From: Perkinsus chesapeaki
Lineage: Eukaryota; Perkinsozoa; Perkinsida; Perkinsidae
Reading direction: 5' to 3'
NCBI GenBank assembly: GCA_013115145.1
Contig: JAAPAO010000025.1
Span: forward strand, 1-64,000
Length of the DNA stretch: 64,000 nt
In this document: positions 3,940 through 49,740 of the stretch, piece after piece
How the letters are laid out: the number at the start of each line of letters is the position of its first letter
Position numbering within the stretch: position 1 is the stretch's first letter
The notes under the pieces: generated by a model
What the model was told of the DNA's origin: nothing
Database searches by the model: none
Seen by the model: only the letters and a program-made list of their open reading frames with translations
Made by a program: the position numbers and the translations under genes

Positions 3940-6900
3940 CTAGTTCAAAAGGAGCAATTCCAGTGCACCAGTATCCCATCCTTCACCTTCTTTCACAACG
4001 TAATGAACGTCATGCACGTCGTTGAGCTTCTCCGTATTATGACTAACCGACAACACCCCTGTCGTCGGCGGTAGGTTTTTCCTTAATGTCTTGTAAAGCT
4101 CAGCGTGCTGGTCAGCCGCGAGATTACTGGTGCCTATAGCACGGAATTATGCCACGCAAATTCATTGTGTAAGTCTTTACTTTCGTCAAGAAAGAGCCAT
4201 TCGGGCTTGCTGAGGAGCGCGTGCGCGATTTCCAGGCGTTGCGCTTCGCCAGCCGATAGGATCATGCTCCAGTGCTCTCGACGGTCCAACGGGTGTGGTG
4301 GCAATAGCGTGGCTTGCTGGAACTTCGGCGATTCTCCGAATAGTGGCAGTTCTAGCGGAGTAGGAGGGGCGAAACTCGTGGACAGGAGCTGCAAAGATTT
4401 GCGAATCGAATCAAGGACAGAGTGACATTTCAAAGAGGATCGAGGATTTCGCATTAAGCGTGTGAAAGAGCACTATTCTGTAGAACAGAAGATTGCAGAA
4501 TCTGTACTCGTTATAAACAACTCTACAAATGATAAGATCCTTATTATAATAACCATCACCTTCTCCCTGATAATCTTTTATTGAACGACATTGTGGAAGT
4601 CCTCGCAGTGAGGGTTCGACATTTCAACAGGAAGAGCCCAATAACATTTTCTCAGGTCCAGCAAGATACGGTAATGTCACCGTAACGCGCCACAACACGG
4701 TCAGCCATCGAGGGGAGGCAAGATGACTTACGTGCGTGAGACCAACAAGATGAAGTACACATTCAATTTGACGATCAGAATAAGCCTCGGGATCGTCGGG
4801 ATAGCAGACTGCTTCACGCAGCGAGCCTGGGCAAGAACACATTGCAAAGTAAGACTTCGGCAACAACTTACCATCTCTTAAAGGAGCTTTTCGCGAAGGC
4901 AGAAAAAGTGACTTGTCCTTCGGCGGCATGCTGAGCCGAGATCTTGGACCAACGAATCTGATATGGCATTGACAACGTACAGTGGGAATCTGAGCTTACG
5001 GCCAGACTCCAGCCAAAGCACGCAGGAGACTTGTCTTCCCACTGCCTTCTGGGCCGCTCAAGAGGGCCCATTGCCCTTTGCCGAGTTTGAAGTTGACTTT
5101 CGTTAAGAGAGCCAAATCATCTTCTTTCTTGCCCGGGAGGAAAAATAGACCTTTTGACTCAGTGGGAGTGTAGATGTCGCACGAGTCGAGTGTTAACGAA
5201 TCGTCATCGCCTGAAAATTGATCGTCAAAGTTTATAAGTCCATGCGAATAAGAAGCATGTCTGAGAAATTTATCGACACCAAAATGCTGCATTGTTCATG
5301 AGACACAGCATCGTATTTATACTAGTTAAGTACTCCACGTGGCAGTATATGATATCGAGTATCTATTGAAACCAAAAGCCGAAACACATAGTGGCCACTG
5401 GCGACTATGTCAGCATGTCCCGACTTTTGGCGACTCGCCACGGTGACACAGGGAAATGAAATTTACTTGGCGAAGTATTCATGAAATTTCTCGGAATTTT
5501 TCACGGCTCCCTCAGCTCGTCAGGATCGAGAGATTCAAAACTGATCGACACTCCTCCGAGATTGATCAACTATATCGATCTTTTTTCATTCTTCTTCTCA
5601 TCGTTATCAGATCACAAACCCTTACCAGCAACTGGCTTAAGACCGCTCCGAGTTTTAGACAGGAGATTGAGAGCAGATTCAAACTCAAATAGCCGATTTC
5701 CCGCAGCACGCCATTTGATGATGATACCTAAACAGAGCCATAAAACCCGCACAGATCATCAATCAAGGTGCGTATACGATATTCGCTCCGAACAACCAAA
5801 TTTGGATCACTTGGAATCACTCGACATGTTCGGCAATCTATAACATCGTTCAGTTCCAACATAGCGATCTCCTGCGAAATTATCCATACTTCTCGGCAAG
5901 AAATAACTATTTATAGTTTTTGCACAGCCAAGCTCGCCTACCGTAAGATTGAACGAACCATCTGAGGGCCTCTAGCACATAGCGTAGAGCATGCACTGTC
6001 TGATTAAGATGCCCTAGAGTGATCTGGCTCGAGAAGTAGGCGCCGGAAAGCACCTGGCGAGAAAAATACGACAACGGTTCGGATTGAGATGCAACTTACG
6101 AACAGGGGGAAGATATTGCCGGTGTACTCGAAGAAGGAGTCAAATAGCTTCAAGCGTTTGGTGACAAACATAGATTCATATCTGAGATGCGCTCACTGGG
6201 AATCGAACCCACGCCCTCAACAAGCCTCACGTTATCCGTTTTATATTCATAAAACTTCTCTCGAGTCTGGATAATTCTCGGCCTAAAAGTCGCTGGAGAT
6301 TCTCCAGGTAAAGGCGGTTACCTTGCGCGTGCAGCATCGCGACATTTTCTCCGTGATCTCGAATTCTAATAAGGTCCGATCGAAAATCGGCCTCAACTCG
6401 CTGCGCCGCGTAATCCAGAACCTACCAAGATCACTGTGTGATTTGACAAGGCGACAAAGGCGCTTACAATCAATTGCTGACCAACGAGATGGGTACCGAG
6501 GGATCCTAGTAGACAGTAGACGAGAGAAGTGTACCTGAAGCAGTACAATGTGATAACGACGTATAAAAGAATGTTACTAATGCGGAGATAGATTAATAAT
6601 ATTGATAGAAAATCAGTTACTAATGCGGAGATAGAATAATAATATTGATAGGAAATAAGTTACTAATGCGGAGATAGATTAATAATATTGATAGAGAATA
6701 AGTTACTAGTGCGGAGATAGATTAATAATATTGATAGAGAATAAGTTACTAGTGCGGAGATAGATTAATAATATTGATAGAGAATAAGTTACTAGTGCGG
6801 AGATAGATTAATAATATTGATAGAACATAATTTACTAGTGCGGAGATATATTAATAATATTGATAGAAAATAAGTTACTACTGTGGAGATATATTAATAA

Positions 6901-8399: not shown

Positions 8400-10880
8400 A
8401 GCTAACTTCCACCATGCGAGACTCACCTCCTTGAGTGTTCTCCTGTGGCGTTGTTAGCTCCTCATCGAAGTTCGTTTCCGACCACCGCAGATGAAGATAT
8501 TCGAACGCGACCACCGCAGCCTAACAGATGGATTCCTCTCTACAGCCACTGCCGTCTCGAACAAATCCTTTTTAAAGTATTATAGATTAAACGGTTTGGC
8601 GAATGTGTTCGATTTATACACTATCTTATATCAGACACTGCGGAGAACATAATAATGAAACATCATGTCCAATCGTATAGCCAGGCAGTTAGACCGCAAT
8701 TCCTCCGGAATTTACTCATCAGTCTTGAGGAAGTGAACCCGGTTGACTTAACCAGACGTATATATCCCAACGATGTGTGACACTGCTTACCACCAAAACT
8801 GCGAGCATGGCCCCATAGATCGGCCAAGGTTGAGCAGTTCTTCGTCCTTCATCATCGCTATCGCTCGTCAAAGCAGGAATAACCTACCAAAAAGCTATCA
8901 GCTGCAGTAATACAAACCATCTATAGCGAACCATATGATTATCTGTAGACGCTCGACATTATATGGCAGTGATGGTAGATGCTCTAACAGTAGGCTCACA
9001 GCAACCCACTGTCAGTAGGCTATGCAGTGTTGTAGCGTAAGGGATATTTGAGCGCAGCATACCGATGCTCGTGCATTCGCTACAGTATAATACATTCCAA
9101 AAAATTTGAAGGAAAATGTAATTAATGAAAAACTATTTGCATTTCCAGTGCATTCCGATGTATACCAACTTTCCTTTCCAGCGATGTTCGTTATACAGAT
9201 TGGTTGCACAGGATGTGGTTCAAGCACTTGAGGAAGTAAGACCTATTTCATACTGGCTTCTATCTTGGGCGGCCAGAGCGACGGGATATAACAACCGTGA
9301 AGTACTTGGTTAGAAGCGGCGTTCAGCGGCACTGAGTCGGATTAAGGCAGGACACGGAGTTCATCACAAAAACGAAGGGATTAGCAAGCTCATTTCGGTG
9401 ACACTGATTCCACCTCAACAATACTTGAATTTGTGAACCACAGAAAATGCCTACCGGTTGAGTTCCGTTCGCGACGGGCTGCTCGCCGACCAGAGCGCTC
9501 ATCAAAAGACTGTCCGTGCTGATCAGAGAAGACTGCATTCCATGCTCCCACAGCCCGGCAGCTCCCACAGCCAAGTCTGTTCCCCGAAGGGCTCCAACCT
9601 ACAAGACCCAAGTTCGATCCTCGGATGCGTTATTTTTATTCTTACTGTAGATTGCCCTGCTTCATCCTCTATATGTATAGGTGCTTTGTAGGGCGGTAAG
9701 CCCCTTACTTGACTGCATGGACTGGTAGAGGTATCATCACAAGGTGGAGGGTCGACGAGCGGCTCACCACAGACAACCTAATAGAAGAATCACTACTGGA
9801 GTCATGTGACGACGAATGCTATATAAACGGTCACATAACGGCCGTCAAGCACGACGACCAAATGTCACCATAATGGCGATTATCTTGTTTTCGTCTTTGC
9901 TAGTGTTGATAAGATGGGATAAATAATATTATATTAGTATCATAATAATGAGTATATTATTCGATTTTTAAATGTGAGCAAACGGAGTGTCGCGTTAGTA
10001 AAACCCGTACGGACAGTGGGAGTGGCACGCCCGCGCGCCCGGGACACAATGGCGGTGCGCAATAGTTCTATCCACTAGTCGCATACAATATATATTTTAA
10101 TGTTGCTCGTAAAAATATATTATTCTATTCAAAAATGAAAAGATTCTTTTCTCGCCATTTTTTTATTTTTTTCTCGTGAAATGGGTGCTGCCCGAGAAAG
10201 AATATTTATGAGAACACGCTTCCTACAAAGCTCTATACAAATACAAGTACTATTATAAACTAGTTTATATAGTCTAATATAAGTTGTATTAAAGAACCAA
10301 TATACCATTTTACATAATTATAAAATATCCACAATTCAGACGAAACTAAAAATCCTCTTTTCCTCGACAACGTAGCAATTATATCCGCCCTACCTCCGCA
10401 AGCAGTACAAGTCCGCAGACCAGACCAGGGACAGTAATTATAAACACTTTGAGATGAATACAAAAGTGTATTGGCTGCAACAACAATACTCCACTACTCA
10501 TTAACCACGCAACTCAGTGCAATAATACGGAAATAATATCATCTCATTTATCATGCTCATCATCGGCATCCTCGGCTATATAAGGCAAGTTGCTGTCATT
10601 TAACGTACTGAAATAAAATGTAGCAGAAATACTAGCACTGTCATAAAGTGTCCCTGACGTATCCTAGGTCGATTCGTGCACTGGGAACCATAAAGGAGCA
10701 TAAAATGCAACTCTCCTGTTTAAAATACAAATAAATTTCCTGACAAAACTGCTACTATACTTTCGCATTACGAAGCTCGATGAACACATTTCCGGGACGC
10801 TAGACGATTCCTTCAATGCGAGGCAATCCTGTCCACATGTTTAAAAGGTCACCGATGGCTCGCCCACTCAGCTGTCAGCT
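8400..10880. other. 2.5 kb without a supported gene
   Basis: Short open frames on both strands between 9012 and 9691 and at 10260-10463 have no domain or paired splice sites that I can defend. Around 9605 there is an isolated tRNA T-arm-like stretch (AAGTTCGATCCTCGG, +). The bases 9900-10300 are AT-rich. Confidence 0.4.
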
Positions 10881-10885
10881 TTCTT

Positions 10886-13800
10886 CTAGGAACTTGCTCT
10901 GCCTTAATCTGCGTCGTACTGGAGCCAAATATCTTACCAGCTTCCGATACCTTTTCCACCTAAAATTCATTCCTCCCAGGAATCGAACCCACGCCCTTCA
11001 GCATGGTAAACAACGACCGTACCCGCTTGAACAACGAGCTCGACGCAAGCTTTTGGCCGACGAAGCCCGCGAAGGTTTCGATAACATCTTCATCATCATC
11101 GTCAAATATCCCAACCTCTCCATCAAGCTCACATTTATTAATCATTTGTATCACCCCGTAAACCTGTACAACTGGATGCGAGGAGGATACGTCACGCGCC
11201 AGGAAATTCGCTCGCACAATAGGTTCAAGTCTGAGCCATGATAGCTGGTCACCAAACCAAAAGCTTGGTCCCACAACAGCTTTGCGGTGAGCCACGGAAA
11301 ACGCTGACAAATGCCCAGCAGTGAACAAATAACGATTCAAAAAATTTCCAAGATCAAGCATTATCCACATCTTGTCATCGCGTCGCATCAGACATGAAGA
11401 TCATTAGTGTTATCGAAAACAAAAGTCTCGTCGTAGTGTTAAGCTCTGATCGAGAGGAAGCTGACCATACGGTCTCGATATAGCCCAGCTCATTCCCTCG
11501 AGCCTATATCAAGAGGATGACATGGATGCATTCCAACTGCCATTTTAATCTACAATTTCTCACCTGACCATCCTTCTGGATGGGACACACCAGCACGCTT
11601 CTGGTTCGATAACCAGTTTTCACGTCCATCTCAGAATTGAACCTATTACACAGCGGAATTTCCTGGCGCGTGACTTATTTACCTCTCATCTTCCCAGGCA
11701 TCGAGGATATTAATAGTCTTCCTCTCTCTAGCGCATTCTCCCGCGATCCCTTACATCATTACCAGTCCAACGAGTTAAGCATTCAAGCTCCCATCCCAAT
11801 GGTCGTGGGTTCTATCCCCCCACTTGCCTTTATTCCACGATATCCGTATCTCTTTCATACTATCCGTCGCTATGCTCCACAACTGCTCCTTATTATGATC
11901 AACTAGATACACTGTTGAGCGATCAGCCGACACCTACTCAGACCTCAATCGCCCTGCCACTCATCCAACCTTCGCACCACGATTACTCAGTCCGCTCTGC
12001 CTACACAGCTGGACGCGATAAAATAACTTAATCACTATTTTCGGTATTAAATCCCCAAGACCATTAGGTCTCAAACACCATTATAACTCTTCTCTAACAT
12101 CATTCTACTCCTGCTTATTTCTCGCCCGCAGCACGGCCTATAAGGCCCTACAGCCGCCTCTATCCCACATCGCATCATTAAAACAAACTCCGCGAACCCC
12201 CATATGCCCCCGCCGCATTACCAGTTCATTAGCGTGCATCGCTATCGTCAAAATTGTGCTCTGTGCCCCGAGGTCTTGACTCAGCCCCGAAAGTATCCTC
12301 ACCAAACCTTCAGACTTCTCCAAAGACTTAACTGCTAGTCCATACAGCTCAGCATTCCTATCGCAGCAATTTCATGGCGCGCGACATTCCACTACCGCAA
12401 GGCGATGCCGGCTTGTTGCGCTAGATGCTCTGCTACGAGCTGATCGGATGAAGTGAACGGCTCCAAGTCATCATCTGCAACAAACCGAACCGCGTTTCAA
12501 GAATCATGAGCAACGAAGTAAGAAGTTCATACTAAAACATAGTCATCAGTCTGCTAACAAGTATCATAGAAAAGCTACCATATCCTCAATTACGCGGTCA
12601 TACTCACCCATCATATACAACACAGGAACTCTCCAGTCCCTTACGAGATAACACCTTCTTCTATGATTCCAAGTAGTCTACTAGTAATTCTGAAAGTCTC
12701 TATGAAGTAAACCAACCATACTGACCAATTACATAAAGCCCTATCCATCATATGTTTATATAACTAGCGTAACACAGCGTGATGGCATCAAGCAATGAAT
12801 CCCTAGAGTTCCTCCATACCAACTTTCCCCCAGATTCCCTCTTGATAGTACCATTAGCCTTATTCATTATCTGCAGAACTCCAACTGCCTCTCCATTGAA
12901 GTCCACTACGGGAACAGCAAGCAACTGTCTCGTCCTATATCCTGAACCCAAATCGATCGCCCGATCGATAGCTAGATACGCAACTGCCACGGAGCAACCC
13001 TACCAGTCTTTTTATCAAAGTCGCTGTCAAATCTCGTGTCCTTGTAGCAGTCTGCTATATTAACCTTGAATTCAGGTTACAACCGCGGAAGAATCTTTAC
13101 ATTCCGCCACGATCACGCTTCAACCTAATCTTCAATTTTCCCTCCCCACCAACTTACCGTCTCTTTACTGGCAAACACATGACCAGCAATGCCCTGTTTA
13201 GGATGCACCTACAAACCTCTCCGACTGCCAATCCCGAGCGCCACAAGATTGTCCCACTCGTATAGGTTTGGCTAGATTGCTCGCTGTCAAGGTCAGCATT
13301 TTTGTGTGTGGATTGTAGATGAAAAGCGACGCTCGATCACTTCGCGTTAATCGTAGTGCTTCTCTAATAATCGCATTAATGGTCTCCTTGGGTACCTGTA
13401 GGAGGGCTCCATCCAACGAACCAGAAGCCTAGTGCGGAAAAGATATAATAAAAGGGCGAGATAGGTTCCTAACCACAGAATAGAGATGGAATACGTACCC
13501 CTACGTATAATGGAATACGATGCCCTTGGTCTATTAAATCACCTTTGCAACGACCCTAAATCCAGATACATTGACGAAAGTATCAATAGGTCAATAATGT
13601 GAAATTGAGCAAAGTATATAGTTAAGATTATTCAGCCCCATATTACAATTTCTTTGTTAATTCGTCTAGTCGCCTCCAACAGCCCCTTTAATACGTCCCC
13701 ATCCATCTCTACAGCCGCCCTCCCTTTGCCGTACTAACTTAACCTTCAACGAGCAGCACGAGCAGTCGGTATTATCACCTCGGTGGCAAACGTTTCATCG

Positions 13801-14829: not shown

Positions 14830-15389
14830 AAAACAGACATCGTCACAACATACAACGGGGAGGTCACCGAGATGCTCTTGAACCAGTTGCCGGTCACCAG
14901 CTACAAGTATCTGAGAAGGTTCGATTGGGTATATATATCGAAGATGAATTGGCACTCTCCATTGATGCCTATCCGACAGACATGAGTCACATGTGTGTCG
15001 ATGCCAATGTTATTCTTGGTAGCGACAGCATGAAGAGAATGGGGGCCATAGTCGACTTCGCCGAGGGTATCCTTGATACCACCGATTGTGACCTGAAGTT
15101 TCCCTTGATCGGTTTGACTCAGCGTCATGCATCTCCGGTTTACACCACATTGACCAGCGCCACTTCTGATGAGTTCTCTTGCCATCCATTAGATAGCCTT
15201 GAGGCTCGATTCGCCAATGCCGATGAAGCTGACATCACCGCTTTCTGCGAGTCGCGTCTAGAGGGAAAAGAGCTTCCCGAGTTGACGTTTTCTCTCAAGC
15301 CTGGCACACACTGTTACCAGACAGTGTCCAGTACTCCGTCCCGAGTGGGTTACGAGAGGCCACTGATCGTGCCATCGACGAAGAGATAG
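14830..15389 (+). pseudogene. protease C-terminal remnant of the LTR element
   Basis: The frame is open from the LTR edge and carries VDANVILGSDSMKRMG, the typical retropepsin C-terminal ILG-D motif, then a linker to reverse transcriptase. The catalytic D-S/T-G motif and everything upstream are absent. It stops at 15389, while the RT frame is already open about 60 bases earlier in the -1 frame (from about 15320). No obvious slippery heptamer is seen at the overlap, so a lesion is as likely as programmed shifting. Confidence 0.6.
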
Positions 15390-18300: not shown

Positions 18301-18754
18301 TCGCCCTGTAAGCCAGCCCACTATTACGGCCCGCCGTGCCGCTGTTATGAAATCCCCCGGCTCCCAACTGCGTTGGAACAGTGGTTACATCCTCTTCAAG
18401 GTTTCGAAGGCAGAGTTCGATAATCGCGATGACAATGTTGAGAGCCTGTTTATGATTGGCAAGGTTTTAGACTCGGAGCCCAATTTCCTCAAGGTCCATG
18501 TGTATGATGGCGGTAAAACATCCCGCTACTTCCTACCCTTGTGGACCTCTTCGATGAAACCCCATCCGGTTCGGTCTAAAGAGGCACCCCAAGATTATGA
18601 GCGCTTGATTCGGGACGTTCCTTACTGTGATGTCCTTTTCTCGGTTGACCTTACCGACAGCCTCCTATTGACGGCGACATCTCGTGCAAGGTTGAATGCC
18701 GCCTCTATTGGTAAGTGGATGTCACCCTCTGACACGGTCGCGTCTGATATGTAG
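15335..18754 (+). CDS. Ty3/gypsy-like pol: RT, RNase H, integrase
   Basis: One uninterrupted frame of about 1140 codons; an ATG first occurs at 15488, but homologous sequence (EEIAKGHWIE) begins before it. Domains in order: RT with the catalytic YVDD box (WLSPYVDDLLIFAES) and the template-binding LPQGLG; RNase H with QSDASD, EKEAYAVY, FQSDSQTA and a terminal N..AD motif; integrase zinc finger (TH-DQ..H..., CPVCC); integrase core with IQIDHKE, VSCDNAF and the catalytic Glu in SSMVERSH; and a variable C-terminus. The stop at 18754 is 25 bases before the 3' LTR. The intact frame suggests recent activity or trans-mobilisation, although gag is missing. Confidence 0.9.
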   Translation, partial: SVPSGLREATDRAIDEEIAKGHWIELQESDLEVDAWVSPAFSKAKCRTEDGLPRVRILVDLRLLNNAISIDSHYREGQLLPSQEAFIRNIPSCTASYSLVDVSSAFHGCRVNPQVQRLLTFRLNARLLRAKTLPQGLGISALFWGRHLHTALSLIYGSLWTKWLSPYVDDLLIFAESPTRCKWRRSLITCALRAMGKEISLKVGSEVTPAIDAIGLHFDGPYYRLSDENLDKLRALFVHTPRNQQEVRRLIGTILWSSLAFRGDRLVDFGECLRSLNDLLTIPSSDFEWANSNGPPTEKKLMTMLTRENLALHSDLEEATGESGGYVWLVQSDASDVAVAGALYRARANIVYGTCRDPQERLQDASLVALWSKALSSVQQRWHTIEKEAYAVYCCISRWGRLWLSTTRNAHMVKPDRKCGPAILFQSDSQTAIRHWETLKVPHDPAISLKGKRFLSWVENVSFISFMDHGFEHLPGSYNSVADMLTRVGAFLSTPGPELLGHGSVYSLTPATMKSSSLRPALPLSDTTIRNVGLAYYDDETQWQGVMLREIFITLLSKVKPTDLPSGVVFPHGRHLTQIEAWLQAGLFVLSDDNLMFTAATLTSSKALYVLVVPASCEADLVDSSIVDAATACDDPFDLRRQILFCTHDQIMSGATHMSLGAALKALSDSVWWPAMVSAMRDHVWSCPVCCTTSRRRGKQVPARPVLATTRFKEIQIDHKEIPLRLKERIEDLPATAAVLSIVDRCTGELCIELVRDKTALTTAQTLVRRWMSKRGVPAIVSCDNAFATDLAKIVSSLLGYRMTFACARHPQGSSMVERSHASISTALTYIEESGDCDSAYDLELHLASAEFSHNANSGVFRRLLGEDVPKPLSLCGVSSDGDELVTLNGVDETKFVRRLTALVEDEVLEHIVGSAIKGHYNLFDRVAKTAPKNGRRLMCDVGDVVLYQGAEDVVVKISYDAYSGLPLVVKLASGTKVHPTEISPAGDSRPVSQPTITARRAAVMKSPGSQLRWNSGYILFKVSKAEFDNRDDNVESLFMIGKVLDSEPNFLKVHVYDGGKTSRYFLPLWTSSMKPHPVRSKEAPQDYERLIRDVPYCDVLFSVDLTDSLLLTATSRARLNAASIGKWMSPSDTVASDM

Positions 18755-20597: not shown

Positions 20598-20818
20598 GCT
20601 TACGGACTCTTGAGTTTTGAGGCGACATGAAAGAAGTCCATGTCGTAATGTTTATGCGACTCGTGGGCTAGAATGCAGCTCCTGAATTCAATGACAGGAA
20701 ATTCCAATCTGGACTACAGACTATGGAGCAAGCTCGACTCGGAAAAGCCAAACGTTTTCACTGGAACCCTGAGAACTTTTCAGGGTGTTATCTTCGTTGA
20801 TCGTAAGCTCCACCTTGT

Positions 20819-22306
20819 ATGTCCAACCCACTCCGCCTTCCCAGACAGAGCGACGCGGTGGAAACTGTTTCCCATGCTTGGGATTCACTGAGAGGTTGCT
20901 CACTATCATCGCTACTTCTTAATCGGTCTCTCCTCCGGAGCTCTGAAGACCATAGCTCTGCCTCCACTATGTCAGTTCCAGTAGACAACCTCGATATCTT
21001 TTTAAGTCATGCATGGTGTGACAGTGGTTTGTGGAAGCAGCTCGCACTCGTATTATTGTACAGCCCGCCAATCGCCTACAAGGCTGCAGCTTTATCATCC
21101 ATCCTAGGAGCTTGGTTCCTGTTGGGGCGGTTTCCTTCGCACGTGTGGTGCAGAATTGGGGTTCTCATACTCAGTTCCGTAATATTCGTAATCTGCATCA
21201 TACTGTTTACATTATATAAGCATCGCAACACTATGGTATTTCTTGACAAGTGTTGTATAAATCAAACAGATCTTGTTGATAAGGCAAACGGTATTTCGAA
21301 ACTATCCGATTATCTCAAAAAGTCAGACAAGCTCGTCATCCTCTGGACCCCCAATTATCTCAATCGCCTATGGTGTGTCTATGAGTTAGCCGTCTTCATG
21401 CAAACGCATGAGACTAAAGATGTCATTGTAGTGAATCTTGGTCATGTCAGGCTATGTGTATCTTTACTGGCAGTTCAGCTACTTGGTACCATTGCACAAT
21501 GTCCTTCAATCCGGCTTGCTGGTGAATCGGTTCAATATATCATTATGTCCTGTACAATTTGCGGAGCATTCGTCTCTTGTATGCTGGGGGCCAGTCAGGC
21601 ACATCGCTGTCTCGAAGAGTGGACAACCTTTTTAATGAAATTGGAGTCATTTGATGTAAACGGAGCCGAGTGTACATTATATGAAGACCACAATAAACTG
21701 AAGCAACTTATCCGTAAGATGTATCGCTCAGAGGCTGATTTCTCTGCATTGGTGAAGCGTCTATTTTTGAGAGAAGAAGAGCACGAACGCTCACTGGCCT
21801 GGTTCTTATCCCAGAGCTCGAGAAGAATCATGTCTGCCCCGTTTGTGCCTGCTATAGCTGCAGGTGCCGCCTCCGCATTTTCACTTGTCTTCTTGGAGCA
21901 GTCGAGGCCATTGACGAGGATTGTTCCAGAAGGATCTGTTTGGGAAATGCCGAGTACTTTGGCGACTCTTGCATGGGCGATTCGCACACACCTACTACCT
22001 GAACTATTACTTCCTTTTCGGGTGCAGTTGACGCTGTCCTTAACACATAAACTCGCGGGACAGCGGCTAGGCCTACGCAGTCGTTCGCTATTTAGAATCC
22101 AATTTACAATTGCATTTGTTGCATTCTCATTGTTGAACAGAGCTTCCTGTGGACTCGGTGTTTTTCACATTCCTTTATCGGAAGCCACAGTGAAAGGATT
22201 ATCTGACGAGGTTCTATCGCTTTCAGCTGGACTTATCGCACTGTGGGTGGTTTGGTCGATATCTAAATGGATCAATTTGTTTAGGGTGCCTACTCACAGA
22301 TCTTAG
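20819..22306 (+). CDS. TIR-like domain multi-pass membrane protein
   Basis: Intronless 495-codon frame. The TIR-like core has DIFLSHAWCDSG (strand A), FLDKCCINQTD, KLVILWTPNYLNRLWCVYEL and a following helix. The Glu in WCxxEL corresponds to the position of the catalytic Glu in NAD-cleaving TIR domains; whether this protein cleaves NAD is inference. Unusually, the domain is split: two or three hydrophobic helices (about residues 70-135) sit between the SHAW strand and the LDKCCINQ strand, and more helices follow WCVYEL and fill the C-terminal third. Similar membrane-embedded TIR-like proteins are common in microbial eukaryotes. The ATG at 20819 gives a 50-residue polar leader; the ATG at 20969 (MSVPVDNLDIFLSHAW) is an equally good start. 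Confidence 0.7.
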   Translation: MSNPLRLPRQSDAVETVSHAWDSLRGCSLSSLLLNRSLLRSSEDHSSASTMSVPVDNLDIFLSHAWCDSGLWKQLALVLLYSPPIAYKAAALSSILGAWFLLGRFPSHVWCRIGVLILSSVIFVICIILFTLYKHRNTMVFLDKCCINQTDLVDKANGISKLSDYLKKSDKLVILWTPNYLNRLWCVYELAVFMQTHETKDVIVVNLGHVRLCVSLLAVQLLGTIAQCPSIRLAGESVQYIIMSCTICGAFVSCMLGASQAHRCLEEWTTFLMKLESFDVNGAECTLYEDHNKLKQLIRKMYRSEADFSALVKRLFLREEEHERSLAWFLSQSSRRIMSAPFVPAIAAGAASAFSLVFLEQSRPLTRIVPEGSVWEMPSTLATLAWAIRTHLLPELLLPFRVQLTLSLTHKLAGQRLGLRSRSLFRIQFTIAFVAFSLLNRASCGLGVFHIPLSEATVKGLSDEVLSLSAGLIALWVVWSISKWINLFRVPTHRS

Positions 22307-33364: not shown

Positions 33365-36300
33365 TCACAGCTTTCGCAGTCTAGCTCTCCTCTGCCTCTC
33401 AAGCTCGAGGAGCTCGTTCCAGATTTTCTCGTCGAACTCGGTTCGCCCCCGGCTGAGCAGCATCGGACGTAGAAGAGTTATCCAAATGAAGAGGTCTGTC
33501 TGGGAGATGCTGGGATCATCCGTTCGAGCTGAAAAAGTTAAAACCACGTATCCTAGGTCGATGCGTGCACTGGACGCCATCAAAGAACCTAAAATATTTT
33601 TCCTCTGATGTTAGCTCTAGGAATACATTCTCCAGCCGAGCTTCTATTATATCATCATAAAACTGTTTTGCTAAGCCACGCCTACCATTATTTACTCAGT
33701 ATTATTGTAACACCAGTTATCGGACTATTAATTTTTACTCATACCAACTTACGCACACTTTTTGAACACATTTCTGTGACATAGTTTCCATCAAAGACAA
33801 AAAGAAAGCATAGGCTTTCACGGTAAATGAAGCACCAACGCGAATACGATCAAGCGAGATGGGAAAGAAAAGAACCAACCTCTGTGCCATGCATCAGGAA
33901 TGACATCATCTCCAAGTTGACCAGATAAGTCAACCTGTTCCCTCAAAGAGGACACAATCGCAAGATACGCTCTTAACGCTCCCAGAGGATCTGAACCAGA
34001 AATCTTCACTGTGCGCGAAGAAATGCGATCCTTACATGAGCTCTTCTGTGCACATTCGTCAACATCGTCGATAGAAGGTACGAGAGGAAGATGCACAGAG
34101 CAAGGCCCGGATGCGCCGCCTTTAGAGAGAATCTACAAACAAGGAGACTCTTCCGGGTTTTCGGGTTTTGCAGAGTATTCGGGAAAATACAATTGTAAAG
34201 TCGATAAAAGATGCTCCATTAAGCCTCACCGATTCCGAAGTTGATAGTGTAAGACAGTTAACTTCGGTTGGAAACTCAATCCTGGTCGGTCCGAAATCGA
34301 CGCATATCTTTTGGTCGCGAACCTGACCAAGAAAGAATCTTTGCAAGATACTCCATGATTCTACAATAAACAATGTATTATTCAGGATGCGGAATATGGG
34401 CTTACCAAAAGTTGAATCGCCCGTAGGTTATCCACGTTGAAGCGTCCGGGGTTTAATCGGGTTTCATCGAACACGAGATAGGTGCGAGGGGCAATCTGGA
34501 GATCACCGGCGACTGAAAAAGTACAACCGATGCAGAAATACCAAGTACACGTTTGGAGAGGAATTTATTATTAATAATAATAAGTTATTATAAACGTATA
34601 CACTATTCTAATACCGAAACGAATCTCTAAATGAAGCAATATTTTGCGGAAAAATGCAAGTCCCGGGGATCGAACCTCCGACCTCTTCAACCACAGTGTC
34701 GCTCACCCTGTTAAAGCTTCGGCAGAAGGAAAGAGATGAAGAAAAGATGTCGAAGCCTGGTTTTAACTTCTATACCATAACAGCAGAGCCGCTACGGGCC
34801 CTGAAACTAATGCGCGCTTTGGCCGCCCAGTTCAGCGAACATTGCACCACAGATCCCACTGCATCTTTGAGTCCAGCAGTGCTCAAAGTGAGTTTCAAAT
34901 GTTGCAGCCAGGCGTAATAAGTATATATATCGCCGTATACCGGTACAATGTGATAGCTACCATTATATAACAGAATAACCTGGTAAATTGACTAGAACCT
35001 TCACATATGAAAAAGGACTCCTATAGGGACATCAGATTTTCCTACGAGGAACACATTAAAGTTTTTCAACTTATTTTTCACCAAACTTTTTATCATATTT
35101 CTGTATCGGGAATATTTTCTCATCTTCTCAAGGGTAGATGGGCCCCTTCATGCGAACTCACCAAGTTCGTCGGTCTCATAATTTTTCCTCGGGACTAATT
35201 TATCAGAGTTCAGCGCCTCCACGTTAACATCCATTTCTTTCACTCTCGGAAGCAGATCTCCGATGCATCCTAACAATGGACCGCTGCAACCTCGCCTTCC
35301 AATGTGACTCTCACCTGCCAACCCCCTAATGGAACCACCATCGTTGCCTGACAATATGAAACGCCATAATCGATTAAGCGATCGATTATTCCAGCTGACA
35401 TTCACCTTGGGGAAATCCAGATATATTAAGCGGCCAATGTCCAATAACAACGCCGCTGTCGCGGATCGAACCCGGGTCGATTCCTGTCACGTGACGCGAT
35501 ACCATATGTAGCAGGAGATACTCGGCAGCGAGACGGTCACCTTGGAGGGACCTGGAGATTCTATTCCTTTCAGCGGCGCTGCTCGCTCTACCTGCTCAGG
35601 AATCTTATGAGCTCCCCGCGCACTCTTTCAGTGACAAGTTCTTTTTTCATAGATTCGTTTAGAGGCATCTGTAGCATAACATTTGACAGTATAAAGTTTG
35701 TCGTATAATAACACAGATATCATTGATACGGTATCAACTTACCGCTGGGCTCCACTCATTCAATCGTTGGAATGTCAAGACTTGAATGCGACAAGTCGAT
35801 TTCGACGCCGAGGCGCTTGAGAGCTCTGAAGGTTAAAAGCAAACTGTATCGACTGTGTAAATTGACGATATGATATACATTACGTAACACGTGACAAGCC
35901 CAGACCAGGGCTCTATGTGAGGTCATGTCAATCTGACAATGTAGCCTTGGTGTGTCATTACGATGCTGATATGTAATTGTGCGCGCCCCTGGGGCGCCGG
36001 CGGCGCCGCGCCGCCCCATCGGCGTCGTGGCCTGATCTAGGCTGGATTACGTTATTATTATTATTCGACGTATAAGCGAGATTCCAGATTCTGCAGTGCG
36101 CCGCATCCCTCGCTAGTAACGCGTGTACAATACACGGTGTACTGGGCCTTTGATGGAACGCCCTTCCCTGGGGCCTTATTTACCCTTTTGCCGTTGCGCG
36201 GGTGCCGTAAGTAAAGCTTAGCTTCACTCGCCATGTGTTCGCGCACCCCCCAGGAAGTTGCGGAGGAACTCTCGAACGGCCCATTGTATTTTGACCTCTC

Positions 36301-42131: not shown

Positions 42132-44725
42132 TCAGCCATTCGATGATGATAAACGAGGATGCTCCTGTGCAGAGAGATCTTGTCGTCGTCGTCGTCGTCG
42201 TTGTTGTTGTTGTTGTTGACGGTGATATCCTTCAACTGGCCTCCTATCAGCATCTTTCATATCGAGTGAAGAGCCCCCACGGGCAGCAGCAGCAGCAGTC
42301 GCAACAGGGGATTTGTTGTTGTAATAGTACTTCTGAATGGAGCCATCGGGAGCGATTGAGACATCCATAAAGGGTCATGACAATAATAATAATGATGATG
42401 GAATTTATAACCTCATATATGCACACCAGAAGCTAAGCTAGGTCGCATTTGCAGCAATATAAATATCAAGCCGACCGGGAGGAGGAGGGATTAGTCGGCA
42501 AAAATAATTTGTCGGCAGCAATAACTGATAACACCATCTCGAGGGCACTATTACCATAGGAGAAAGACGACGATGATGATGATGATGATGATGATGATGA
42601 CGAAGACTAGACCATCAAACAAGTAGGGGCAGCAGGGGACTGCTACTACTACTACGTCGTCATCATCATCATGATCGAACAAGTATCAAACCGAGAATCG
42701 TGAGAGCAAGGGCAAGTGTACAGCAATAACAGCAACCATCCCTGAAGGCATTAATAGATCCAAAACATTAATCATTCTTACCGAGTACGAAGCAGCTCGG
42801 GAATGGTGGGTGGTGATAAAGATAATCAGCCGATATCGATTAATACAGCCCATGCGCTGTATCCGACCGTAATGGAGCAGCAGAGTTGATAACATCTAAA
42901 ATGATAGACGACTAAGCAATAAGAGAACAAGTTGTATTACCGCCAGCTCCGGCGGCGGCGGCGAGCAAGCTCAAATCTTGCACGCCCCAGACTTCTAAGG
43001 GGTCCATAGTTCTGAGAGGATTAAACGTCCCAGCCGAGAATCGAACCTGCGCTCCACCAAACTTACAGATACTGTGTCGTTATTGGCAACGCGGTGGTGC
43101 CTCGGCGGCGTCTTTGCAACATATAAAGTGGATGTCCTGAAAATCGATATGAAGAAGACACAAGAAGACATTGTCCTCTTTACGATCTGTTATCTCACAG
43201 CATTCAGTCATCTTAACAACTGTATTATCACGAAATGGTTAAGTTGGTCAATGATTCAGTTTGAACCAAAGAGTCGATTAGTAGACTACAGCCGCAGCAG
43301 CAGCAGCAGTAGGGGGTAGCTTACTTTCCTGATTCAAGTGCTTAATAGTATCCTCTCGACCCTGGATGTGCGCAAAGAATAATTGGCAACTTCTCCGTGC
43401 GGTGTTATAATGCAGCCATTCATGGTTCTGAAACAACCGCCACAATTTGTCTAAAACACCCCGAGTTCGAAAGAAAAGCGCCGAAAACATTATGATATCG
43501 TCGTACTTGAAATAGCCTGGCGAAGATGTAGAGATACTCCGCCGATTTGAGGTTGATGAATGCGTAACCTCTGTTGGCATCTTTGGTGGCATCGGCGGGC
43601 AGATACCTGTTCGGGGAGGAAAGAGTGATGTTTATTAATTATTATCATTACAATAAGTCATAACTGTCGGCCAGTCCGGGAAGCATTGCTATCTCTTGAC
43701 GAAGAAGTTGGAGGGAATACCTTTCAAAAATGAGAGACCTCAGAATCGAACCAACGACCTTCAGCATTGAAGTGCGACAGGATAACCACTACGCTGATAT
43801 GGCGGTGAGGGATTGAAAGGAAATGAGAAGCTCCTATTTCGCTGCTTACTTCCGAGGCACACTTTTTATCATCAACGTCGTCCGATCATCCCCTTGACTA
43901 GCCAACTCATCGAGGTCGATGAGCTGAGGCTTCATGCCGATTGTTAGCGTACGATGGCACCCCGGTGGCGCCACTTTAGCAACCTAAAAAGGAAATAACC
44001 CCCCCCCCCGACAATCAGAAATGAACCCACGCTTTTTTCAACGTGCCGACTGGATCGGGACTCCCCATTAAAGGGTGGCTGCAGCCGCGGAGGCACATGC
44101 GATGATGATGCCGCATAGGCCTCTGAAAGGGTTGGATTAGCCTCAGCGTTGGTTGATTGGCTAGTCCCACCTAAACTGGGTACATGGCCGGCTTGTCTTG
44201 GACCCTCAGCCCGATGATCAGCTACGACGCCCTGATGCAACGGTGATGGACTCCTTAAGACATGCTACAACGTACCCTAGTTCGAATGCTGTCGATTGTT
44301 GCTGTTGTTGCAGACCCTCGTCCAGTAGCTGAGACCAGATGAAGTTATTAATGTATTCATTAGTACGATGATGATTCCTTACCCAGGGAAACCAGCTTAA
44401 GGAAGTTATCAGCAACGTCCTGTGGGCGAATGTCCGACCAGTCCAAGCTGCTACCATCACCATCGCTGAGCGCCTAGCACCATAATTCAGTGAAATCAAT
44501 GTGGCGCCGCCCTACCGTCTCCTCACACTCTCCTCCTTCTTGATGCCCCCCGGGGGGCCCCTCCGTCGGCTCTGATTGCCTTAGAGGGCACAACACGCCG
44601 CTCTCCATGGCATGGTCCGATAATACCAAAGGCGTTGAACGACCTAGTGTATCTCCTGCATTGTAGCCAATGTACTGAGGATTACTGGAAACAGAATATC
44701 TGAGGTTCAAGCGCGCATGATACAT
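42132..44725 (-). CDS. MEI2-like RNA-binding protein (C-terminal RRM)
   Basis: MEI2-type proteins bind RNA through a special C-terminal RRM and act in meiosis or differentiation in fungi, plants and protists. The RRM is read across exons 43850-43983 (QGDDRTTLMIKSVPRK), 43652-43720 (YSLQLLRQEIAMLPGLADSY), 43507-43606 (YLPADATKDANRGYAFINLK) and 43325-43427 (LFAHIQ-like LFFAHIQGREDTIKHLNQE), all in phase. Downstream exons are 43067-43136, 42941-43011 (MDPLEVWGVQDLSLLAAAAG) and a last low-complexity exon to the TGA at 42132 (QQQQQQRRRRRRQDLSAQEH). Upstream exons near 44218-44720 (SLDWSDIRPQDVADNFLKLV, LLDEGLQQQQQSTAFELG) extend the N-terminus; the start is not fixed. Two introns here are tRNA-like. 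Trinucleotide runs (GTC/GTT near 42180, GAT near 42570) lie in exon and intron. Confidence 0.75.
43012..43066 (-). other. 55-nt intron made of tRNA 3'-half-like sequence
   Basis: Between MEI2-like exons 43067-43136 and 42941-43011, joining phase 2 to phase 1. It starts GTAAGTTTGG, contains GGAGCGCAGGTTCGATTCTC and ends AATCCTCTCAG. B box intact, sense orientation. Confidence 0.8.
43721..43849 (-). other. 129-nt intron containing a full-length tRNA-like segment
   Basis: Splits the MEI2-like RRM at codon K (phase 2). It contains CAGCGTAGTGGTTATCCTG (D arm with A box), an anticodon-arm-like stretch around CACTTCAATG, then AAGGTCGTTGGTTCGATTC (T arm with B box). Stems are degenerate. Sense orientation. 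Acceptor TTTTTGAAAG. Confidence 0.75.
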
Positions 44726-45149
44726 AACAGGTGGCTTTGTATGCTACCCTCCATTGTAATGTCTGTCAGAAGTCCCCCTTCCTCGCTGGGAATAAGTCGG
44801 GAAGGAAGCCATAATACAATATTTCAATACCTACGATCTTCTAAAATCTCAGACTCCGCGAACGCCACTCAACTGGCTAAATTCAGCGTGCGCACGCGTG
44901 CAGATTTCTTCGCCCGCGTCATGTCACCGATAACGCCGGTAGGTTGTATGGAAAACCCCAGCAGATGGCAATCATCCGACCGAAGGCTTCGGTCAGTCAC
45001 TGATGCTCGAGACCGACTCGACCACCTTCCGTCAAGTACTTCAAACACAAGTCCGAAAAGAGTTCAGAAAACTTCTGTTGGGATAAAGTTTTACCGCCTC
45101 ACATGGCGACCGCAACAACCCTAGCATTGAAACTAATGTTGAGCACCAC

Positions 45150-45228
45150 CTTACGCCGAATCGAACCCACGACCTAAGGAGAAGAGACAGTGATGCACCT
45201 TATTGCCTTAGACTGCTCAACCCTTACT
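45150..45228 (-). other. tRNA-Leu-like segment after the vigilin-like stop codon
   Basis: Directly downstream of the vigilin-like TAG: GGTTGAGCAGTCTAAGGC (A-box-like, as in Leu tRNAs), then after about 30 bases TTAGGTCGTGGGTTCGATTC. Acceptor ends do not pair. It may belong to the 3' UTR or intergenic space. Confidence 0.5.
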
Positions 45229-48200
45229 CTAGTGTTTCTTGCTCGGGCGGAACTTGGCCTTCTTCGGCTTTCCAGCTGGGTGGGCGCCAAGCGGCGGGAA
45301 CTGCTCCGTCGAGGCGAGATCTACCGGCTCCTCCTTAGAACTCTCCGAGGCCTGCTCACACAATCTACAAAAGCTTTCTAATCCCATCGCCTACCTTCTC
45401 TGAGTGACCAGCATCTCGTCTGGCAAACAGGAACGACTTGGTCTCTGGAAAACCAAAGCCATGCGGATGAACCTCGGCTACTCCTCCCTTACCAGCATGC
45501 GCGGGCTCGTTCTCCTTTTCGGCATCAGGAGACTGTACAGTTATAACATCCTTACGAGCATCTGCAACAATAAAAACATTATCCAAGGCCCGAACGAAAA
45601 TGGTGACCGAACAGAGAGACAACTCCGAACCACGTAACCGCGATGATGATGAAGCCCGCAAGATATTTGCACGAAAAGTGCATGAAAACCCTCCTGATTT
45701 GAGAAAACAGATGTTGAACTCGGCGAGTGAAATTACACAGTGAATGCCAATAATTGAAAGAACTTTTGTAACGAGTATAAAACACAGTTCATCACACCGA
45801 GGAGGTAGCACAAAGACTTCAATCGCAGCTAATAAAATACAACGTTAGCTGCGCTCAAACGCATTCTACACAAGTATCTAAGCTTGAAGCGTGCACGCGA
45901 GTTCCCTGCTCCTCACTCAATTCTTCCTCAATCATAGTGACTGCCTTATCGACAGCCGCCGGTAAGCCAGTAATGGTGACCTGAGCAAATGATGACGATC
46001 CTGGAGCGCAAGGAGAAGGGCGGAGACGAACTTACTATCTGATCTTCACCAACACGAATATCATGACAAACAGATTCTTCAGTGATTCGCCTGAAATGCA
46101 GCAACCGGGGATCGAACCGGGGACCTTTCGGTTGTTGCTGCTTACCTGATAGTGCGACCCTTTGGACCGATCAAAATACCCATCTCATCAGATCGCAGCT
46201 CAATCTGTTTGATCGTGTACTTGGACAACTGCTTCTGTAAACCATCCAAAAACCTGATCAAAATGAACAACCATCACAACTGCGGCGGCGGCCATTTAGG
46301 ATGTGAATCATGCAGGGTGTATATGAATATAACGCACAATCGCAATCGTTAACCCTCTATTGGAGAGAGAGCTCGAATCAAGGAACCAAACAAACAGCTT
46401 ATCTCGGTGGACGATGAAACTGGTGAGACTCTTCTCCCAATTCTCGATCCCCGTCATGTCCTTAGTTATAGCATAAATCATATAAAGTATGTCATAATAA
46501 AACATAAGTTGCCCTCTTACTTATTAAAGTCGGCAACAGCCTTATCCTTGTTCGGTTTCAAGCCATAAACGAAGACGGCTCCATCCGGCTTAGAGTAGTA
46601 CAGAGAAACCGCAGCATCTCTCTGAAACAAAAATACCCTAACCCGGGATAGATCACACGACCCCTCCAAAGAAAGGCAGCCCCCTTAACCGGTAGACCAC
46701 AATAGAACGCAAAATCTCACCTGAATGTCCTGCAAAACCTTGCACCTATCTTGCAGCATCGGCTGGACTGCTTCTTCGGGCACCGCGACACTCACCGGCG
46801 CATAGAACTGCTTTAACTGAAAATGACAAGATAAGCCTCATCGATACCCAGCAAGCGAGAACCTGCTGCTCCGCTACACATCAGCTTCCACTGAGAAAAT
46901 ACTTCCTATCGAAATCTTTATTATTGCATTGACTCCTAGTTCATGCAACGGAAATGAATTATGAAAATATAAGACAACGAGTTGGAATAAACTTACAATT
47001 TTATAAAATTCGGTCTTGTGATTTATTACATCGCATTTGCTCCCCGAGGTAGAAAGTAATCGTTAAAAATATTCCGCACAACGTTCAGGATCCGTGGAGT
47101 ATCGAAACCCGCACGCGCTAGATTATCGTTACCAATTCCTTAGCACGCTCGCGTCCCTCTTGAGTGCCCCAGATATCCATGTAGCTCTCCTCATCCTTAT
47201 TCTGCGCCCTGAAAGAATAAAAAACATCATAGCTGAGAGACGAACCCAGGACCTGCGGATTACTAGCAGCTTATTATACCGCTAGGCCAAACAATCCGAT
47301 GCTTACCGACGGAAGAATATCATAGCCTCTCCATTCAAGGCATTATTGACGCTCGTAGTAGTGGTTTCGCCCCACGTCTTAGTGTGAGCCCTACAAGCAA
47401 ATCTCGTCGGTAGCAAGCCTCACCAACTTACCTCGGCACTTTAACGGTCTCGGTCGTGAAGGAGCACTTCCTGATGAGATCCAACACATCATCTCGAATG
47501 CGAGGGAACTCCTTTCTGGCCGAGTCATCAACAATTATGCCAATCTAACAGCACCAATTTACAAGGTTCTATTTACAATGAGACCTACTTGAGATGCTTC
47601 TAAGTTTTCTGGGTTGGATCTAGCAATCGTTACACCAGGCTCCTTGTTTTTAAGATGGGATACGCGACCAAGCATGTATATCTGAAAACACTCGAAACAC
47701 TCAAACTGGGTAGGATACAAATTATAGAGATACCACTAAACTGCAGCATAGTAGGATTTGATCTACGAGATAGCTTATCATCCCACAAGTGTGATGCTGT
47801 GGGTTTCTGATACGTGGAGATACAACGAATTTTTCAAGAGAAATTCTTTCGTTCCAGAAGGCATCTCTTCCGGACCCAACATCCAATATATGTACTCATG
47901 CTTCTCAGCGATGATGATAGGGCATACAGCAAGCAAACGCACAAGCTCCTTTAATGTAGACCCACCTCTTCGATGGTCTTGTCAGGGTTCATAGTGGTAT
48001 CGAACAGCTTGTCCAAAACCTCATCAGTCGTGTCGATCAGTTCGACATGAAAGCCGGCAAGTATCTGCAATAATAATAATTCCTAAGAAACTATTCACAG
48101 TAGGCTTCATTACCTTAGCGATGACCTTCGATGCGGCCAAAGCTTGGTCTCGTGATGGAGCTCGGCAGTTCACCACAGCACCGTTGCCGCTGAGGGGCGC

Positions 48201-48606
48201 AACAGACACACTGACACCGTACTTCGTTTTCATCTGATAATAAACTATAACGATAAGGATAACGTTGCGTCGGTAGGATAGACTTCAACAACTAGGTCGC
48301 CAAGAAAGTGGATCCGTCGTGCTCACCATTTTAGCGTAGTTATTGCCCATAGAGTCACTCTGGAAGGCTCGGCCTCGGAAACAATCGGTCTGAACAGGCT
48401 CATTGACCATCGGTGGGCCCTCAAACTTGGTCTGTCCTGCTGAATCACCATTACCTGAACACCAAATGTCGCACATGTTTGTATCTTGCACGGATCAACC
48501 TAAGATTCTCACGTGAATTCCTCAATCCAGGAGTGAGTTTCTCACCTTGAGCGGCTGCTTGAGGATTCAGTAGATTTGGCTTGATAAGCAAATTTTGCCC
48601 CTTCAT
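45229..48606 (-). CDS. vigilin-like multi-KH RNA-binding protein
   Basis: Cytoplasmic RNA-binding proteins of this type carry strings of KH domains and associate with translating mRNAs. Start 48606 (MKGQNLLIKPNLLNPQAAAQ). Exons in exact phase: 48546-48606, 48327-48454, 48114-48233 (KTKYGVSVSVAPLSGNGAVV), 47966-48064 (ILAGFHVELIDTTDEVLDKL), 47814-47948 (IAEKHEYIYWMLGPEEMPSG), 47589-47681, 47432-47544 (IGIIVDDSARKEFPRIRDDV), 47307-47390, 47133-47208, 46721-46816, 46521-46621, about 46385-46440, 46146-46253 (RSDEMGILIGPKGRTI, a KH GxxG loop), then about 46036-46090 and VTITGLPAAVDKAVTMIEEE, then a Pro/Lys-rich tail ending KPKKAKFRPSKKH at 45229-45354. One exon between 47133 and 46816 is unresolved. 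Three introns are tRNA-like and one is only 17 nt. Confidence 0.8.
46091..46145 (-). other. 55-nt intron formed by a tRNA-like hairpin
   Basis: Vigilin-like gene, splitting the codon after GPKGRTI (phase 2). It starts GTAAGCAGCAAC and ends GTTGCTGCATTTCAG; GCAGCAAC and GTTGCTGC pair perfectly as an acceptor-like stem. Between them lies AAGGTCCCCGGTTCGATCCC, a T arm with the B box. D and anticodon arms are absent. Confidence 0.85.
46622..46720 (-). other. 99-nt intron containing a degenerate full tRNA-like segment
   Basis: Vigilin-like gene. Contains TTGTGGTCTACCGGTTAAGG (A-box-like D arm) and, 35 bases on, GGGTCGTGTGATCTATCCCG in the place of a T arm, though the TTCGA core is changed. Ends TTTTTGTTTCAG. 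Sense orientation. Confidence 0.6.
47209..47306 (-). other. 98-nt intron that is almost entirely a tRNA-like cloverleaf
   Basis: Vigilin-like gene, phase 2. After GTAAG comes CATCGGA, which pairs with TATGATG (6 of 7 positions, one G-T) as an acceptor stem. The D region is TTTGGCCTAGCGGTATAA; an anticodon-arm stretch CTGC..GCAG follows; T stem CTGGG/CTCAG encloses TTCGTCT. Then a short T-rich tract ends in TTCTTTCAG. Sense orientation. Confidence 0.8.
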
Positions 48607-49545: not shown

Positions 49546-49659
49546 GATGTGTGTTGAGCTTTCGATTGGGTTTGTGTGTTGAACTACTTAGTTTTTGAGA
49601 TTAAGCCCCACCCAGCCGACTCGGACCCGCACAAGACTTCGCGACATGAACTATTTGTG

Positions 49660-49740
49660 TAGGTGGCTAGCGTAGTTGGTTAGGATACTTGGCCGCTGAG
49701 CCAGAGACGTAGGTTCGATCCATAGATAAATCTTTTTAAC
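49660..49740 (+). other. tRNA-like segment, degenerate
   Basis: GGTGGCTAGCGTAGTTGGTT has a good A box; TTGGC..GCCAG forms an anticodon-like stem around a 6-nt loop; GACGTAGGTTCGATCC carries the B box. The T and acceptor stems do not pair well, so a tRNA pseudogene or tRNA-derived SINE head is likely. Confidence 0.55.

Follow-up and report, generated by a model that had tools for sequence, protein, structure and literature searches.

Can a sequence derived from a tRNA become a spliceosomal intron? The question is raised by a 55-nt intron in the first 64,000 nucleotides of contig JAAPAO010000025.1 of Perkinsus chesapeaki, a unicellular perkinsid parasite of clams (assembly GCA_013115145.1), the stretch of DNA that was analysed and that we call the window. 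The original prediction, made from the letters of the sequence, held that this intron is a tRNA-like hairpin in a vigilin-like KH gene. It lies in the KH-domain gene FOL47_004387 (45232..48606, minus strand), for which protein alignment gives 15 introns, three of them tRNA-like and all three in the sense orientation, and it runs on the minus strand from 46145 to 46091, beginning with GTAAGCAGCAAC and ending with GTTGCTGCATTTCAG, exactly as predicted. The flanking exons do join in phase at the KH GxxG loop, in phase 2 directly past GPKG, and the peptide joined over the intron matches Pfam KH_1 with an E value of 1.8e-12 (1.7e-13 for a longer joined piece). The junction is uninterrupted both in the annotated P. 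chesapeaki protein, whose spliced alignment to the window recovers the identical intron, and in the orthologue from P. olseni (75% identical to the submitted query), which is also contiguous over the junctions of two full-length tRNA-like introns of the same gene. Judged by its ends, its in-frame exons and the conserved protein over the junction, this is a spliceosomal GT-AG intron. As for the gene, its KH_1 domain stands, and the vigilin part of the name does not: the protein is annotated as hypothetical, with one KH_1 domain seen.

The likeness of the intron to a tRNA lies in its 3′ half and in its ends. Eight bases near the 5′ splice site, GCAGCAAC (46134..46141, minus strand; tRNA positions 1-7 plus one), pair 8/8 with GTTGCTGC near the 3′ splice site (46098..46105, minus strand; tRNA positions 65-72), the register being that of the logo of 64 sites described below. 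The acceptor-stem character claimed for this pairing holds up in the tRNA register: GCAGCAA by the 5′ splice site is exactly complementary, in acceptor-stem fashion, to TTGCTGC at positions 66-72, and A73 follows. The T arm (46105..46121, minus strand, tRNA numbering again from the logo) with its B box GGTTCGATCCC (46108..46118, minus strand) is present too, but its T stem contains a C51.C63 mismatch. Past the B box, the sequence continues with C63, which belongs to the box too, G64, G65, the seven bases 66-72, and then A73 and TTTCAG (46091..46097, minus strand), that is, a discriminator base, a short T run and the 3′ splice site. The predicted fold contains the 8-bp stem and has an energy of -17.6 kcal/mol (z -2.76; 2 of 200 shuffles are equally good). 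The intron lacks the D arm and most of its anticodon arm but retains the acceptor stem and T arm, and it is for this reason that neither ARAGORN nor Rfam RF00005, up to E 10, calls the intron as a tRNA. A true tRNA gene inside the intron is ruled out by the same absence of calls and of the two arms. Of the 16 tRNA types compared, which represent 12 isotypes, Val is the closest. The best reading is that the focal intron is an internally deleted copy of a tRNA-derived sequence, and its stem is better read as the surviving acceptor stem, a relic rather than a family feature.

Similar introns in other genes had also been mentioned, and the frequency of T-arm motifs relative to controls had been suggested as the test. 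Such introns were found, and the motifs exceed reversed controls throughout the genome. For the strict B box GGTTCGANYCC, 1735 sites were counted, against 148 for the reversed pattern, the former count including true tRNA genes and palindromic sites being counted on both strands. A B box followed by TTTCAG within 5-25 bases is found 74 times (reversed control, 1), a B box with GTAAG 10-40 bases upstream 18 times (control, 1), and a B box with GGYATTTT at tRNA spacing 166 times (control, 0), at least 4 of the 100 listed sites of this last kind being ends of tRNA-Arg or tRNA-Val genes. The motif GTAAGCGAAAGGTC, with at most one mismatch, is present 48 times (control, 9). The dispersed high copy number that is typical of SINE-like sequences is thus seen in the counts for the B box and the longer 3′-end pattern. 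In full-length units an A box and a B box are spaced as in a tRNA; the focal intron retains the B box only, and units in which both boxes are exact are few beside the true tRNA genes. AGYGGTTA with a B box occurs 75 times (control, 0), mostly in what look to us like true tRNA genes, and GTAGCGGTTA with a B box 4 times (control, 1), one of the four being tRNA-Gln. Two matches to GGTTCGACCC, in the Sec24 copies of locus L012, are coding sequence.

The 74 sites with a B box and TTTCAG comprise 69 separate loci, four sites in other loci (one a true tRNA-Thr) and the focal intron. Five loci were dropped as tRNA genes, four on ARAGORN calls and one by eye; the latter, L059, is tRNA-Asp-like without an ARAGORN call and may be a further diverged unit. 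This left 64 sites. Five of the 74 are ARAGORN-called tRNA genes (L023, L051, L060, L073, and L019 at 2071, minus strand), and a tRNA-gene terminator alone can therefore resemble a 3′ splice site.

A logo of the 64 sites, which were chosen by the B box and TTTCAG only, has in tRNA numbering G45 in 64%, G46 in 72%, C48 in 95% and G65 in 77% of them, and, at the tRNA distance, G70 in 67%, G71 in 66% and A73 in 83%, followed by T. The order of columns in the set is AGGTC48, the T arm, seven bases, A73, TTTT and the 3′ splice site. At 18 sites chosen by their 5′ side only, G70 is found in 12, G71 in 11, C72 in 14, A73 in 11, and T75 and T76 in 13 each. Positions 70-73 are conserved, but at 66-69 the bases are distributed almost at random.

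How many introns carry such a sequence, and are they genuine? The introns of three protein-aligned genes, KH (with the annotated P. chesapeaki protein), NAA15 and Sec24 (both with P. olseni proteins), were scored with a matrix made from the 64 sites. At a score of at least 9.5, the motif is present in 3 of 15 KH introns, 5 of 19 NAA15 introns and 3 of 22 Sec24 introns; at 10 or above, the numbers are 3, 4 and 2. Pooled, this gives 11 of 56 introns (10 sense, 1 antisense) at the lower threshold, which was chosen after two introns had been seen at 9.8 and 9.9, and 9 of 56 (8 sense, 1 antisense) at the higher one, the Sec24 alignment being doubtful at its ends (its first intron has 35 nt). Once the three sites used to choose the genes are subtracted, 8 of 53 and 6 of 53 introns remain, respectively. 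The exons of at least 33 nt in the three genes yielded no hit in 6367 bases on both strands. A gene finder, used for context only, recovers 13 of 15 KH and 19 of 19 NAA15 introns, both genes being in its training. Among its predicted introns, hits of at least 10 number 8 sense and 1 antisense of 68 in unselected sequence, and 20 sense and 7 antisense of 287 in selected loci, counts that still include true tRNA genes. These antisense hits indicate that antisense copies are a real minority.

Between the NAA15 protein and its homologue in P. olseni, which is uninterrupted at the motif-bearing junctions, identity is 84%. When 10 of the 64 reconstructed peptides, picked by eye, were scanned, six had a Pfam domain over the junction (Helicase_C in L083, EF-hand in L062, ABC_tran in L074, Response_reg in L034, zinc_ribbon_6 in L061 and Cyclin in L076) and four did not. 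A domain spans the junction as well in a response regulator (L013) and in a histidine phosphatase (L016), where the tRNA-like intron has 86 nt and is not the site by which the locus was selected. In the reconstruction, 40 of the 64 introns passed simple filters, and several were given impossible lengths (29-38 nt) when a GT within or beside the B box was taken as the donor; the introns examined are GT-AG, the only type that the method looked for. Similar introns accordingly occupy non-homologous positions in many genes, as introners do. Locus L012 contains tandem Sec24 copies. At residue 443, both copies have an intron, which is tRNA-like in one of them; at residue 298, one copy has an antisense tRNA-like intron and the other has none, though 7 codons on the latter contains an intron unrelated in sequence. 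Two introns of the Sec24 copies (L012, 2312-2363 and 6844-6896) contain an antisense tRNA 3′ half, and their donors, GTAAT and GTAAG, sit where the end of an antisense T run would be.

Within the window, the KH gene itself contains two full-length tRNA-like units, an intron of 98 nt (47209..47306, minus strand), in which a T stem is also recognisable, and one of 99 nt (46622..46720, minus strand). Each contains an A box, a complete or remnant B box and a T run, then AG, and neither receives an Rfam tRNA call even at E 10. The 99-nt intron is best matched by tRNA-Val (42, against 24 for the next). For the 98-nt intron, the one full-length intron that was searched, no related DNA turned up in the genome, which suggests that the tRNA-like copies are old. 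A recent burst of copies is unsupported, as judged by this single intron without a near-identical genomic copy.

Ten full-length units picked by eye align almost gap-free, and from them a model, R1, was built; four of the ten are from the window (47306-47209, 46720-46622, 43726-43801 and 49656-49738). R1 gives 14 matches in the window at E 1 or better, two of which are true tRNA genes. A matrix of the tRNA 3′ half, which was not trained on the window, finds 13 sites at 14 or above, one of them tRNA-Asn, with none in 20 shuffles and none in the reversed sequence; the other 12 extrapolate to some 6,600 in 35.4 Mb, a rough estimate from a single window. For the motif GGTTCGANNCC, with at most one mismatch, the window has 32 sites where 10 would be expected. 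Both R1 and the matrix recognise full-length elements at 43726..43801 (minus strand, with A and B boxes) and 49656..49738 (plus strand), and 3′-half elements at 34650..34699 (minus strand), 9597..9637 (plus strand), 6187..6223 (minus strand, with a possible 3′ splice site at its end, by eye) and 43022..43052 (minus strand), the last in a candidate intron delimited by eye (GTAAGTTTGG...CTCTCAG). R1 further finds a full-length element within a predicted intron at 10968..11038 (minus strand, E 5e-10, outside the training set) and a 3′-half element immediately downstream of the KH gene at 45149..45187 (minus strand). This last element is flanked by an 8-bp inverted repeat (GTTGAGCA ... TGCTCAAC) that resembles the focal stem, yet lies outside the coding region.

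From which tRNA might these sequences have come? The comparison covered 16 tRNA types of 12 of the 20 isotypes, taken from 20 of 62 over-threshold matches and from tRNA genes of other loci, the complete tRNA-Val gene being added last. On average, 17 full-length units match tRNA-Val best (mean 30.2, next 27.9), and it is the top match for 6 of them; the 64 short introns also match it best on average (9.75 matching columns of 19, next 9.05). The 3′ part of its gene, AGGTCGCGGGTTCGATCCC...GGTA-TTTT, fits the intron consensus, and when the intron matrix is run on the tRNA genes compared, tRNA-Val comes out top at 25.9, equal to the focal intron. Single units, however, are far closer to other tRNAs: one NAA15 intron is best matched by tRNA-Pro (38, against 25 for the next and less than 24 for Val), and the unit L085 by tRNA-Gln (44, against 22 for the next and for Val). 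A single source tRNA was rejected on these grounds. Since Pro and Gln are clearly best for some units, it is probable that several tRNA genes contributed, tRNA-Val most often among the tRNAs compared.

We propose that old, diverged tRNA-derived sequences, probably from several tRNA genes, became spliceosomal introns in P. chesapeaki. This we consider likely, and the corresponding part of the original prediction is supported in many genes of the genome. A full-length unit comprises A and B boxes, the seven bases of the acceptor, A73 and, resembling a Pol III terminator, a T run. In a sense unit, the A73-TTTT end passes directly into the 3′ splice site (TTTTCAG), and a GTAAG-type donor sits at or close to the 5′ side of the tRNA remnant. 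On the simplest reading, the tRNA-type 3′ A and the T run could serve as an intron end once an AG follows, the T run being co-opted as a polypyrimidine tract, and the donor would arise at or before the 5′ side of the tRNA-type sequence. Copies inserted in the sense orientation would thereby be spliceable, and ordinary GT-AG splicing would remove the focal intron. Many copies no longer have the D and anticodon arms and measure 42-55 nt, near the usual local intron size, to which deletions would have brought them. A search for target-site duplications gave matches at the AG/GT consensus only, and in copies this old duplications may have decayed. Since neither a target-site duplication nor a recent copy was found, we infer, rather than observe, the mobility of the sequences, for example by retroposition of Pol III transcripts, and the creation of introns by their insertion.

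It is tempting to go further and to propose that tRNA-type Pol III sequences from several tRNA genes were self-intronising insertions in Perkinsus which, with their deletion derivatives, account for about 1/7 to 1/9 of introns (8 or 6 of the 53 unselected introns, by threshold). The discriminator A and the terminator T run would then provide the branch region, the polypyrimidine tract and the 3′ splice site, and sense insertions into exons would be removed at once. This extension we hold tentatively, as somewhat short of an even bet; if true, it would make tRNA genes a direct, genome-scale source of spliceosomal introns.

The introns might, on the other hand, be older than their tRNA-like content, with tRNA-derived sequences or pseudogenes entering pre-existing introns that later shrank. 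The residue-443 intron common to both Sec24 copies, only one of which is tRNA-like there, is in line with this order of events, as are the lack of target-site duplications and the age of the copies. Against it, the element is the whole 42-55 nt intron in the shortest cases, leaving little remainder, and the residue-298 antisense intron is absent from the other Sec24 copy, although the unrelated intron 7 codons away makes this a weak argument. We regard so late an arrival of the tRNA-like sequences as unlikely. An origin of the whole set from a single SINE-like family with one tRNA ancestor, tRNA-Val being the best fit, also seems improbable to us. It would agree with the greater average nearness of the full-length units to each other than to tRNAs (mean local scores of 26.3 and 23.6, with 16.3 to shuffles), and with the top mean match of tRNA-Val and the fit of its GGTA-TTTT end; in fact, it ranked above an origin from several tRNAs until the comparison with the complete tRNA-Val gene reversed the order. 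Some units are far closer to Pro or Gln than to Val, which speaks against it, as does position 59, which is split between T and A (60 to 38 among 100 listed).

The original prediction suggested, in addition, that the stem holds the splice sites together, and one may ask whether stem and T arm are under selection for bringing these sites into proximity. The focal intron folds well, as described above, and when positions 66-72 are compared with the 60 bases upstream, the best pairing averages 5.72 against 5.55, a value that 4 of 200 shuffles reach; inverted repeats near the ends are also reported for Amoebophrya introners (PMC7789003). No excess of pairing of 66-72 is seen within 40 bases, however, and among 46 reconstructed tRNA-like introns a stem of at least 7 bp occurs in just one, the focal intron itself (shuffle mean 0.04), while stems of at least 5 bp occur in four (shuffle mean 1.6), a slight excess. 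A splice-bridging stem as a family feature was rejected on these 46 introns, and this part of the prediction finds no support. The T-stem pairs 51-63, 50-64 and 49-65 number 98 over the 64 introns, against 96.7 in shuffles, and hence the T stem is not maintained. In five longer introns that are tRNA-like, and in two further units, the fold is not clearly better than in shuffles of the same sequence. With neither covariation nor a clear fold advantage, selection on the T-arm structure was rejected, and a selected stem and T arm together are, in our opinion, very improbable. We give as little credence to a mere chance resemblance to tRNA, in which the B-box-like motif would be a splicing signal that this lineage has in its introns. 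The motif does lie close to the 3′ splice site in many introns, and GGYA-TTTT is well conserved, as a branch-site motif might be. Nevertheless, 45 of the 56 protein-aligned introns do without the motif, and it occurs in antisense too; moreover, C48, the B box, A73 and their spacing jointly obey tRNA numbering, and there are complete units, with A boxes, as well as matches to particular tRNAs.

The origin of spliceosomal introns is an old open question, and a sizeable share of introns with tRNA numbering would add a second route to it, by tRNA-type Pol III sequences beside DNA transposons. A tRNA route would also explain how a new insertion brings a ready-made 3′ splice site. The rice catalase gene is reportedly a SINE case of intron gain by transposon insertion; in introns of that type, as proposed here, a mobile element became an intron. 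A review of such gains counts 35 events in a few genera (PMC3443670), whereas here a sizeable share of the sampled introns of one genome is concerned. Introners, known from fungi, Micromonas, Aureococcus, Amoebophrya and others, are likewise related sequences that form introns of many unrelated genes with apparently precise splicing, and Amoebophrya is, like Perkinsus, an alveolate. The Perkinsus set differs in that it looks tRNA-derived and old, is without target-site duplications and does not have inverted repeats as a class feature.

For the most part, the introners known so far fit an origin by DNA transposition (PMC9860276), and a term search of the main text of that paper found no tRNA, SINE or Perkinsus. 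In Amoebophrya, more than 60% of introns are non-canonical at their splice sites, and the introners have inverted repeats of 8-20 nt and direct repeats of 3-5 nt (PMC7789003). Amoebophrya and Perkinsus are both alveolates with repeated introns, and the focal intron shares with the introners an inverted repeat near both splice sites; by contrast, the Perkinsus introns examined are GT-AG, the only type sought, and inverted repeats are exceptional among them. In P. marinus, genes are intron-rich, and most introns are shorter than 100 bp with GT/AG borders (PMC3101222). With tRNA-derived SINEs, the units have in common the A and B boxes at tRNA spacing and many dispersed, diverged copies. They differ from SINEs in that no body or tail was noticed, the end being A73-TTTT and then the splice site, in the lack of flanking duplications, in that many copies consist of the 3′ half only, and in that more than one tRNA is seemingly involved. 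A literature search, beyond whose reach most subscription papers lay, returned no report of tRNA-derived or Perkinsus introners. A practical consequence is that B-box searches in such genomes will pick up introns.

Some other repeats and reading frames came to light. A second motif, GGCGGAGCGAAGCGA, has 99 sites in the genome (control, 0), and it or a close variant is present in two NAA15 introns (L005, 2517 and 3445); it may represent another intron-borne repeat family. A third, TGAATTTCGTGGCGC, has 36 sites (control, 0), including L005 2981 and L003 3771; its variants stand in some cases behind a GTAAT-like start (GGTAATTTCGTGGCGC), and it may mark another intron family. On the plus strand of the window, an open frame at 20810-22303 encodes 498 amino acids and matches a TIR domain weakly (E 8e-06), and one at 15236-18751, with reverse transcriptase, RNase H and integrase zinc-binding domains, belongs to an LTR-type retroelement.
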